Shown: positions 32,482 to 35,484 of the stretch, piece by piece
Layout of the letters: every line of letters starts with the position of its first letter
How positions within the stretch are numbered: the first letter of the stretch is position 1
DNA from: an uncultured Bacteroidota bacterium
Lineage (GTDB): Bacteria; Bacteroidota; Bacteroidia; Bacteroidales; UBA12077
DNA: 64,000 bases
Assembly (NCBI GenBank): GCA_913055635.1
Contig: CAJXLK010000009.1
Span: 1-64,000, forward strand
Direction of reading: 5' to 3'
Program-made: the position numbers and the translations under genes
The notes under the pieces: generated by a model
Told to the model about the DNA's origin: nothing
Seen by the model: the letters and a program-made list of their open reading frames with translations, nothing else
Databases searched by the model: none

Positions 32482-33561
32482 TTATACCGGATCAGGTCCA
32501 ACCGAAGAACCCACATTTATTGAGCTGGCCTTAAAGCTGACCCATACCTGTTGATCTTTTCGCACATTAAGCCGGGATAAACTCTCCCGGGTAACCAGGA
32601 CAGCCAGTGTCACCCCGACATCAACGACCACTTCCATACCCAGGCTGGCCGGAATGACTTGCTGAACCCTGCCTTTGAAATTATTCAAAGCGGATGTATC
32701 GGGGCGGGATCTGGAAAGGAGGATGTTTTTTGCCTCCAGGGTTATTGAAGCAACTGAATTGGGCACATGGGATGGAAGGATGAAAAAGAGGGACGAACCG
32801 CGGATGCGGAAAATTTTATGATCGCCGCCGGGAGGGTTTTCTACGTTGCCGCGGAAGAAATTCCTTATTCCCACAAATTCTGCCACAAAAGAGGAGGCCG
32901 GATTTCTAAAGACCTCCGGTAGCGGGCCTTGTTGTTGAATGCGACCATTTTCCATCACGGCCACTTTACTGGCCAGGGCCGAAGCTTCCTGGTAGTCATG
33001 GGTAACATGGATGATGGTTTGGCCCTGCTGGTTGAGGTGGCTCAGCAGGGTCTGCAACTCCCTTTTGTATTGGACATCCAGGGAGTTCAGGGGTTCATCG
33101 AGCAGCAGCAGGCGGGGTTCACTGGCCAGGGTACGGGCCAGCACGGCACGTTGCACTTCACCCCCGGAGAGGGTTGAGGGGAAACGATCCAGCAGGTGCT
33201 CCAGGCCTGTTGTTTGCGCCAGCTGGTGAATCCGCCGGCGGATGTAGCTTCGCCCCCAACCTTTTCTTTTCAGGGGGAAGGCCAGGTTGGCGGCGACACT
33301 CATGTGGGGGAACACGGCCTGATCCTGAAAAACCAGTCCAACCCCCCGGTTCTGTATGCGCAGGGAGGTGATATCGCGTTGATCCAGGATGAGGGCACCC
33401 GCATCGGGGCTCCGGATACCGGCCATTATCTCAAGCAGCAGGGTTTTACCGGCACCGGAGCGGCCCAGGATGACAAAATAATCCCCCGCGGCACACCGAA
33501 AGGAGACCTCATCCAGGCTGAAGGGGCCCAATGATTTACTGATGTTTTCGACCCTGAACAT
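32482..33561 (-). CDS. Oxyanion (tungstate/molybdate-like) ABC transporter ATPase
   Basis: This 359-residue ATPase has Walker A GRSGAGKT (33-40), the ABC signature LSGGE (131-135) and Walker B LLLDEP (152-157). A C-terminal TOBE-like region (after residue 230) senses or binds oxyanion in ModC/WtpC-type proteins. I chose the ATG at 33561; the upstream extension has no ABC features. It overlaps the end of the permease gene by 26 bases, a sign of coupled translation. The identity follows mainly from the WtpB-like permease. Confidence 0.85.
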   Translation of the reverse strand: MFRVENISKSLGPFSLDEVSFRCAAGDYFVILGRSGAGKTLLLEIMAGIRSPDAGALILDQRDITSLRIQNRGVGLVFQDQAVFPHMSVAANLAFPLKRKGWGRSYIRRRIHQLAQTTGLEHLLDRFPSTLSGGEVQRAVLARTLASEPRLLLLDEPLNSLDVQYKRELQTLLSHLNQQGQTIIHVTHDYQEASALASKVAVMENGRIQQQGPLPEVFRNPASSFVAEFVGIRNFFRGNVENPPGGDHKIFRIRGSSLFFILPSHVPNSVASITLEAKNILLSRSRPDTSALNNFKGRVQQVIPASLGMEVVVDVGVTLAVLVTRESLSRLNVRKDQQVWVSFKASSINVGSSVGPDPV

Positions 33562-34333
33562 AGGCAGATCTTGAAACCAAACGCAACAAAACAAAAAAGA
33601 CCAGGCTAACGAGAATGAACAAGACTGCCACCGGCCGGGCATGATCGAGGCCAAAAGCGCCAAATCGTTCATAAATGAGCACCGGGGCCACCATGGGATG
33701 GTAGGCCACAATCACCACGGCTCCAAACTCACTCATGCCCCGGGCAAACATCATGACCATGCCACCGACGATGCTGCGCCAGGCCAGTGGCAGGGAGACG
33801 GAGAAAAAAACGCGCATAGGGGAAGCCCCCAGGTTCATGGCAGCCTGTTCAAGGCGCACCGGCACATTTTCGAAGCCATCGCGGGCAGCATTGATTAAAA
33901 AGGGGATGCTGACAAAAGCCATGGCCAGGGCTATCCCGATTGGATGTCCCACCAGGTTCAATCCCACCGCAGAAGCCGCTTTTCCGGCAACCGTATCGCG
34001 GGATATAACTCCCAGAACAGCTATGCCTGCTGCGGTATGGGGGATAACCACCGGCACATCCACAATGGCCAATACCATCCGCTTAAGCGGAAAATCATAC
34101 CGCGCCAGCAAATAGGCAAATGGGATGGCCAATAAAGCAAATACAAGGGTCGCCCCGGCCGAAGTCCATAAAGTGAGGCGGATGCTGCTGATCACTTTTT
34201 GATCACCCACGGTATCTGCCAGTTCCGGCACAGCCGTATGCACAAACATACCCAAAAGCGGGGCCACAATGAACAGCAACAGCAGCCCTCCAAGCAGGAT
34301 AAATAACAAACGGATCGTGCTGAATGATCGCAT
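33536..34333 (-). CDS. WtpB/ModB-like ABC transporter permease
   Basis: This inner-membrane permease of 265 residues has six predicted membrane segments. Segments VPVVIPHTAAGIAVLG and SEFGAVVIVAYHPM match the order of WtpB tungstate/molybdate permeases, and LEQAAMNLGASPMRVF is the EAA loop that docks the ATPase. Three bases separate its start from the upstream frameshifted gene's end. The substrate is probably tungstate or molybdate; sulfate or another oxyanion is possible. No periplasmic binding protein is encoded in this operon. Confidence 0.85.
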   Translation of the reverse strand: MRSFSTIRLLFILLGGLLLLFIVAPLLGMFVHTAVPELADTVGDQKVISSIRLTLWTSAGATLVFALLAIPFAYLLARYDFPLKRMVLAIVDVPVVIPHTAAGIAVLGVISRDTVAGKAASAVGLNLVGHPIGIALAMAFVSIPFLINAARDGFENVPVRLEQAAMNLGASPMRVFFSVSLPLAWRSIVGGMVMMFARGMSEFGAVVIVAYHPMVAPVLIYERFGAFGLDHARPVAVLFILVSLVFFVLLRLVSRSAYVQGRKHQ

Positions 34334-34336
34334 AAA

Positions 34337-35211
34337 CTATAAATGAAATATTAACCGGCGAAAGCCCGCGTTGCGGATATTTGTCTGAAAGGGAATCGCA
34401 GCGGGAAGCATCTCCTTCAGTAGATATCCGCTTAACGAAGTAATGCCATGAATGCCCCGACCTCTTCCATAAAATGTGGTGGGATAATCCACCGGGGTCA
34501 GATCATCCGGTGCCTCTCTTAATACAGCAACCCGGCCGGCCCTGTGATATACATCAATGGCCGAAGCATACAGCTTATCCATGTCCTTTTCACCGGGTAA
34601 TCAGCATCCAGTGAATGCACACAGATTCGTTCCGGCTGTGCAATATTGCACTCGGAATAAAGATCCGTACCCTCCACCAATTTCGAGGAATCGGGCACGG
34701 GCCTCCTCTCACCTGATTTGCCGGGCAGAACAGGTGTTACCCGGGTGGCGATAAGAATCTGATGGCGGTTGACCGGATAGAATATTTCCCCCCAGCTCAG
34801 CACGGTCTTTTCCCCACCTTTGCCCGTGACGCACACATACAGGTCAATGATCGGAGAAAAAGATCCCTTATTGGCCTTATCCAGCGGAACATCCTTCAGC
34901 AAATCATACAGGGAATACCCCTGATAGCGATAGGCCCCAACAAAACTGTCCCGTTGATTTTTTATGCGGGTCTCCTTGACAATAACCGATCGCAGGGGTA
35001 AATGCTCAAGGGGTTGATTAACCGGAGCAGCCACTTCACCATCTATCCTGATTTTGTCCGGATGTGGCAGCTGGTGCGTGGGTGCATTGTCATAGAAATC
35101 ATGCACTGCATCCGCCTTATCAGCTAATGTTTGCTGCGGGGATGACTTTCCGGCCTTTTGACAGCCGGAAACCATTAACAAAGTCGCTGTCCAAAATAAA
35201 AGTGCTTTCAT
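34337..35211 (-). pseudogene. Frameshifted molybdopterin-oxidoreductase-like lipoprotein
   Basis: Two adjacent open frames on the minus strand fit one ~290-residue protein if one base is added at the TTTT run at 34587-34590. The first frame (ATG 35211) starts with a lipobox, MVSGC at residue 19 or so, followed by a domain with DGEVAAPVNQPLEHLPLRSV that resembles the sulfite oxidase-type molybdopterin-binding fold. The frame breaks after DADYPVK, and the second frame resumes at DMDKLYASAIDV and runs to 34337. A sequencing error in a homopolymer is as likely as real decay. The cofactor-binding Cys is not evident, so activity is uncertain. It lies just upstream of the ABC permease, where a substrate-binding protein would be expected. 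Confidence 0.7.
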
Positions 35212-35484
35212 AACCGGCTTATTTTGCATAAATTTGAGCGGGTTCAAACCCACGTCGGTATAAGGCCCTTATAAAAGTAATCATTTTGGATCATTTCTAA
35301 AAGGTGAATGTCAATCAGGTCAACGGGAATTTTTCTCTTAAGGAGGGAAATACGGGAAAGGAAGAACAATTAAAAATAAGCCTGCGGCGGTTCTCTATCC
35401 GGTTCTTCATCAAGTTTATCCCTTTCTTTCCAAACAAAGACCTGCCAAACGCGTATAGAGGTAAGAATACAAAAAATCTGCAGT

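Follow-up and report, generated by a model that had tools for sequence, protein, structure and literature searches.

In the window, a stretch of 64,000 nucleotides from an uncultured member of the Bacteroidales, three genes follow one another closely on the minus strand: a broken lipoprotein gene (34337-35211), an uninterrupted gene for a WtpB-like tungstate/molybdate permease of 265 aa (33536-34333) and an uninterrupted gene for a WtpC-like ATPase with a TOBE domain (32482-33561). As the earlier note on this DNA had described, their linkage is tight, wtpB beginning 3 bases after the lipoprotein ORF and overlapping wtpC by 26 bases. The naming of the two neighbours was also sound: the permease was best matched by the NCBIfam model NF040839 (WtpB, 276.3 bits) and the ATPase by NF040840 (WtpC, 334.5 bits), besides PF00005 and PF03459, although both scores lie under the respective equivalog cut-offs of 340 and 440. 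The ATPase gene is taken to start with the Met codon at 33561, whereas the ORF as delimited mechanically begins at 33711. The locus holds no gene for a binding protein, in agreement with the first reading of the sequence. A promoter scan of the operon returned 0 sites; such sites may not apply in the phylum of the host.

The lipoprotein gene is distributed over two overlapping ORFs in different frames, delimited by the ORF list and by profile matches. The 5′ ORF (34519-35211, minus strand) was listed as 34519-35253; from the start at 35211 it encodes the signal peptide MKALLFWTATLLMVSGC with a lipobox (VSGC), that is the signal peptide and lipobox Cys of a bacterial lipoprotein, then a complete first domain of the SUOX/PruR type and finally about 20 out-of-frame residues. 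The 3′ ORF (34337-34582, minus strand) encodes the first half of a second domain of the same type. A family profile of 353 positions was built from 68 intact relatives, and the domain limits were read off an AlphaFold model that represents one intact relative. Positions 1-212 of this profile matched the window genome at G000:C9:34582-35211 in one frame (E 2.6e-67), and positions 210-282 matched 34376-34591 in another (E 1.1e-13). Since the profile is split over two frames, the two ORFs belong to one gene with a frame break at about 34582-34591 (minus strand), where one match ends and the other starts. The break falls in the inter-domain linker and coincides with the run of T (34587-34590) that the earlier note had named.

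The earlier note had attributed the break to a single missing base in a gene of about 290 residues. The position of the frame break stood; on the other hand, the gene is also truncated at its C-terminus and decaying, and the length was too short, the uninterrupted copies found in relatives, as the note had advised to look for, measuring about 357 aa. About 70 C-terminal family positions (283-353), which include 15 conserved columns, are absent from the window copy, and no single-base error can account for this loss. Both the frame break and the C-terminal loss are real in this assembly. That the gene is intact and was merely misread in sequencing or assembly is very unlikely: the break does lie at a short homopolymer and the source is a 77-contig assembly, but a base error removes no stretch of this length and explains neither the divergence of the remaining sequence nor the state of the gene in the congeners, both reported below, and as a full account it was rejected on these grounds. 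Barely conceivable is a programmed frameshift that joins the two ORFs into a full protein, as the overlap of the ORFs and the short single-base run at the break might suggest; no canonical slippery heptamer was seen by eye, the relatives are read in one frame, and the C-terminal part would be missing regardless. At E 1 the window pieces matched none of the Pfam or NCBIfam models, the binding-protein models PF13531 and TIGR03730 included, and nothing was found for the 5′ ORF in a plasmid collection or in a PHROGs search.

To describe the state of the gene we considered 60 columns conserved to at least 97% in 76 intact relatives. The window copy kept 40 of them, changed 5 (W175R and R193C included) and lacked 15. 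Among intact relatives the number of departing columns has a median of 1 and goes up to 4, except for the outlier L041, which departs at 16 and is nevertheless uninterrupted, so that substitutions alone do not prove decay. In the tree, the end branch of the 5′ piece of the window measures 1.65, compared with 0.19 for the median, the other long end branches being those of L041 (the outgroup, 3.34) and L038 (0.85). The identity of the window domain 1 to 31 relatives averaged 0.471, versus about 0.637 predicted from the WtpB/WtpC identity; this residual of −0.166 is to be compared with −0.084 for the lowest of 31 intact relatives. Among the congeners, G002 has only a remnant, consisting of two short pieces in two frames adjoining wtpB, and no lipoprotein match was obtained at E 0.01 in G001 and G003, nor in G004, a genome that is 57% complete. 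The WtpB-like protein of the window, by comparison, is 75-79% identical in G001, G002 and G003. With its disabling lesions, as they stand in this assembly, and its relaxed constraint, the window copy has the features of a pseudogene. It is unlikely that the 5′ ORF, interrupted in the inter-domain linker, makes a shortened, working one-domain lipoprotein. It does hold the full signal peptide and domain 1 (model residues 57-204), and single-domain PruR proteins of the same fold exist and bind pterins, according to the available text of PMC13259868; however, the long end branch, the divergence in excess of that of its own transporter, the loss of W175 and R193, which are invariant in 68 relatives, and the near-complete congeners with a remnant or nothing all speak against such a product.

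The intact relatives had no significant Pfam or NCBIfam match, and the fold was approached by structure prediction. The AlphaFold model of an intact relative, computed on the 68-row alignment, reached a pLDDT of 87.3 and a pTM of 0.84. Foldseek returned five PDB matches at E ≤0.001, all belonging to the sulfite-oxidase family (2blf, 1xdy three times and 1sox); their whole-model TM-scores were low (0.27-0.29 on the query, the top row extending over 376 columns with an rmsd of 16.9), which is what matches to a single half of the model would give. By VIA-align, residues 57-204 of the model were superposed on PruR 7kos_D (Z 10.5, rmsd 2.4, 113 aligned) and residues 222-353 on PruR 7kom (Z 11.4, rmsd 2.5, 117 aligned), while SUOX enzymes scored Z 7.9-11.5, a YlaL model 7.7, and the rows below fell to Z 4. 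In this listing no fold other than those of SUOX, PruR and the YlaL model stood well over background, other folds being still possible. Because of the model and of the two separate structural matches, an intact family member is predicted to consist of two SUOX/PruR-type domains in tandem, and the sulfite-oxidase-like fold recognised from the letters alone was borne out. The internal duplication as seen by profile comparison (hhalign, E 0.038) is only suggestive.

At the level of sequence, a PDB search with the family profile gave 0 matches at E 10. Against PF00174, the first member scored 12.4 bits versus a cut-off of 24, and 2 of 14 members were listed, with a best E of 0.12; a PF00174 search of the window genome gave no match. 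For domain 1, the hhalign score against PF00174 proteins was 26.6, the best of 20 column shuffles reaching 15.4. The same comparison for domain 2 was discarded, as its 19.7 against up to 18.7 in 20 shuffles left no useful margin. With sulfite oxidase and MsrP (YedY) (PF00174) the family has in common the fold, as predicted for an intact relative, and a weak profile similarity in domain 1, but it lies under the curated score and conserves no Cys where the Mo ligand is likely to be. In the 68 rows, columns 86-88 near the equivalent of this ligand, an equivalence that comes from a weak alignment, are mostly T/A, L/V and L, and the commonest Cys column is 336 (36/68 rows).

With the periplasmic pterin-binding protein PruR (7kos, 7kom, 7rkb) the family has in common the fold of each half, a signal peptide and the lack of a Mo-ligating Cys. 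As far as the available text of PMC13259868 goes, PruR is a single SUOX-type domain of about 170 aa which has no Mo-ligating Cys and binds reduced pterins, with Trp160 and Tyr104 (A. tumefaciens numbering) as pterin-binding residues and a pocket probably too small to hold Moco. The family differs in its two tandem domains and length of about 357 aa, in being often a lipoprotein and in finding no sequence match in the PDB at the threshold given above; moreover, it often lies beside metal transporters, whereas according to the same text the neighbours of PruR are c-di-GMP or kinase regulators. The Trp of the SUOX KW motif, which we infer to correspond to PruR Trp160, aligns to S/A/G in domain 2 (68/68 rows, in a weak alignment) and to N/S in domain 1 (50/68 rows, in an alignment read by eye). 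Y101, Y104, W145, W175 and Y253 are invariant in the 68 family rows. A strict lipobox pattern was present in 35/68 members; in the rest the Cys fits the pattern more loosely or the signal peptide lacks one, as in L090, L094, L114 and further rows of the 68, which indicates that not every family member carries a lipid anchor.

The main proposal of the earlier note was a lipoprotein standing in for the importer's substrate-binding protein, the alternative being that the operon relies on a binding protein encoded elsewhere. The search for a WtpA/ModA-type protein in the window genome, which had been suggested as a check, decided for the alternative. The genome has a single PF13531 protein, on contig C7; it is a WtpA encoded at G000:C7:66653-67630 that scores over the cut-offs of both WtpA models (373.7 versus 355 bits and 327.4 versus 242.75). 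This wtpA lies directly after the gene for the alpha subunit of a formate dehydrogenase (TIGR01591, 773.6 versus 666.25 bits), behind two genes that we take to encode its electron-transfer subunits. In all four near-complete genus members (G000-G003) wtpA adjoins FdhA and wtpB-wtpC is found on another contig, and formate dehydrogenase is present in each of them (G001-G003 by 80-82% identity). In the sister genus, 15 genomes were read at one of the loci, and in 13 (G005-G010, G012, G013, G015, G017 and G022-G024) wtpA is within the wtpB-wtpC cluster, either adjacent or separated by further genes; in G014 and G020 it was not observed at that place. WtpA adjoining formate dehydrogenase in the genus and belonging to the wtpB-wtpC cluster in the sister genus implies that the lipoprotein did not replace WtpA. 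Relatives with WtpA beside WtpB-WtpC and no lipoprotein, named in the note as evidence against its own proposal, were encountered in part: G006, G008, G009 and G013 have this arrangement at the locus, as has G005, but in the latter a lipoprotein copy is encoded on another contig.

The occurrence of the two proteins in the order leads to the same result. Among 98 genomes searched, 27 had a lipoprotein match, counting the window genome and the G002 remnant. A wider sample of the order, comprising 295 genomes, included 55 with the lipoprotein family (the broken copy of the window counted), 95 with WtpA and 113 with aldehyde ferredoxin oxidoreductase (AOR). WtpA was present in 53/55 genomes with the lipoprotein and in 42/240 without it (Fisher p 1.4e-29, a value that ignores descent), and the lipoprotein occurred in the absence of a WtpA match in two genomes, G070 and G407 (81% complete). 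When both proteins could be placed (52 genomes), they were on the same contig in 30, always within 10 kb, and on different contigs in 22. The gene orders in relatives include WtpA-lipoprotein-WtpB-WtpC, WtpA-partner-TonB receptor-lipoprotein-WtpB-WtpC and lipoprotein-WtpA-WtpB-WtpC. A replacement of WtpA by the lipoprotein is ruled out by the WtpA of the same genome, by the co-occurrence in 53 of the 55 genomes and by these shared gene orders, and the interpretation offered in the earlier note is only partly supported. The family thus shares gene clusters with the WtpABC importer in relatives, yet it stands outside the binding-protein family, WtpA being a separate gene that is also present. 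Since WtpA genomes without the lipoprotein are common (42/95), the lipoprotein is an accessory.

AOR, too, was more frequent with the lipoprotein, this enzyme being encoded in 51/55 genomes with the lipoprotein versus 62/240 without (Fisher p 8e-21, again ignoring descent). AOR was also found in 90/95 WtpA-bearing genomes. As a specific partner of the lipoprotein it found no support beyond the link to WtpA: within the WtpA genomes it occurred in 50/53 with and in 40/42 without the lipoprotein. No AOR was detected in any of the five genus members, the window genome and the 57% complete one included.

To examine the gene neighbourhoods we used the best 80 of 227 encoding places in a species-level genome collection, of which 79 were scored within five ORFs. 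Genes for WtpA or WtpB were found at 36/79 of these best-ranked loci, and 16 of the 36 also had a TonB receptor or partner lipoprotein; a further 11/79 had a TonB receptor or partner lipoprotein without Wtp, and such a gene was within five ORFs in 27/79 overall. Three of the 79 loci (L101, L108 and L130, all Elusimicrobiota records forming one clade, SH-aLRT 99) lie beside genes of a Tup-like tungstate importer, a system different from WtpABC. The order at L101 is lipoprotein-TupA-like-TupB-like-ATPase, followed by two genes that look like moeA and moaA, as we presume; the TupA-like protein scored 213.9 bits with NF041772 (cut-off 400) and the permease 180.1 with NF041773 (cut-off 320), while the ATPase is nearest to the WtpC model, under its cut-off. 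At 15/79 loci the gene is clustered with a GntP permease or a glycerate-kinase-type DUF4147/MOFRL protein, and 14/79 have none of the tested neighbours. Together with two loci whose context is unknown, the 15 GntP loci group in a single clade (17 rows, SH-aLRT 99). At the loci of this clade (L106 and 14 others) a GntP permease, a DUF4147/MOFRL protein, a Gfo/Idh protein and a Gate-domain membrane protein were observed.

We consider it probable that the window feature is a decaying pseudogene of a two-domain envelope protein of the SUOX/PruR fold, often a lipoprotein, which elsewhere in Bacteroidales accompanies WtpABC. The genus would have lost AOR and kept WtpABC to feed formate dehydrogenase, wtpA would have come to be carried in the formate dehydrogenase operon, and the outer-envelope accessory would have been left to decay. 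That the losses of AOR and of the accessory are causally linked is our inference from one genus; there is no extra AOR association within the WtpA genomes, and the tie between AOR loss and decay therefore rests on this genus. The search for the partner lipoprotein of the TonB receptor found nothing in G000, G001, G003 or the incomplete G004 and one marginal partial match (E 0.003) in G002.

As to the intact members, our best guess, held with modest odds, is a non-catalytic role in the passage of Mo or W through the envelope. They might act as binding proteins with two pockets derived from a pterin-binding fold, which would receive Mo or W, as oxyanion or as organic complex, after TonB-dependent or porin passage and would help to hand the metal on to WtpA. 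We favour this role over PruR-like sensing, in which the family would be a pterin sensor or redox-signal protein and its co-location would reflect the regulation of Mo/W enzymes. A sensing function is possible, if doubtful: PruR is among the structural matches of both halves and a separate GntP/glycerate-kinase context exists, but the recurrent neighbours, among those identified, are transporters and TonB receptors. The GntP/glycerate-kinase clade, with no visible Mo/W link, is the main fact that the uptake reading leaves unexplained. Somewhat more doubtful still is an extended form of the uptake role, in which the intact members would be the catch protein of a new TonB-dependent or porin-assisted outer-membrane route for Mo/W in Bacteroidales and Elusimicrobiota; a catalytically dead, duplicated SUOX fold would bind the metal as an organic complex, metallophore or pterin-bound, and pass it to WtpA or a TupA-like protein, and the window would represent this route dismantled after the loss of AOR.

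Passage of Mo and W oxyanions over the outer membrane is mostly put down to porins. A family that recurs near WtpABC, near a Tup-like importer and in many cases near a TonB receptor is a concrete candidate for the envelope step of Mo/W acquisition, and in it an enzyme fold has seemingly been turned into two non-catalytic domains. The window itself is a case of ordinary gene decay, yet it offers a natural contrast, as the inner-membrane importer and formate dehydrogenase were kept while AOR and the accessory were lost. A known parallel is the uptake of vitamin B12 by BtuB-BtuG in Bacteroides, where, in the portion of PMC10404256 available, envelope lipoproteins and a TonB-dependent receptor likewise serve a scarce metal compound; the ligand is different, and the TonB link of the family, present in about a third of the best-ranked loci, was not seen at the window locus. 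In the parts of the open-access literature available, no description of a tungstate system linked to TonB or to a SUOX-type lipoprotein was found.

Other genes were observed in the wtp clusters of relatives. A gene for an Alginate_exp-type barrel of about 413-430 aa lies between wtpA and wtpB at L048, L049, L050, L051, L055 and L057, clusters that belong to G013, G006, G008, G009, G091 and G071, genomes that lack the lipoprotein; the assignment comes from a Pfam match for one copy, the rest being BLAST homologues, and the barrel is a possible outer-membrane porin for the oxyanion. An AOR gene (PF01314) is found directly upstream of wtpA at L025:991-3147, L053:3593-5752 and L059:3078-5231. Upstream of the TonB receptor, a partner lipoprotein of about 300 aa is encoded at L063:5749-6651, with homologues elsewhere (the alignment comprised 23 copies). 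By Foldseek, the model of this lipoprotein is similar to 4ei0, a DUF4466 protein (E 7e-11), and is also matched by chicken sulfite oxidase and by many unrelated beta-sandwich chains. A NigD-like neighbour protein resembles the C-terminal half of this partner. Finally, genomes from two genera of one bacterial family, f90, encode small proteins (e.g., G266:C5:33421-33843) with open frames mostly of 183-219 aa and weak PF00174 matches, which are possibly PruR-like single-domain proteins.
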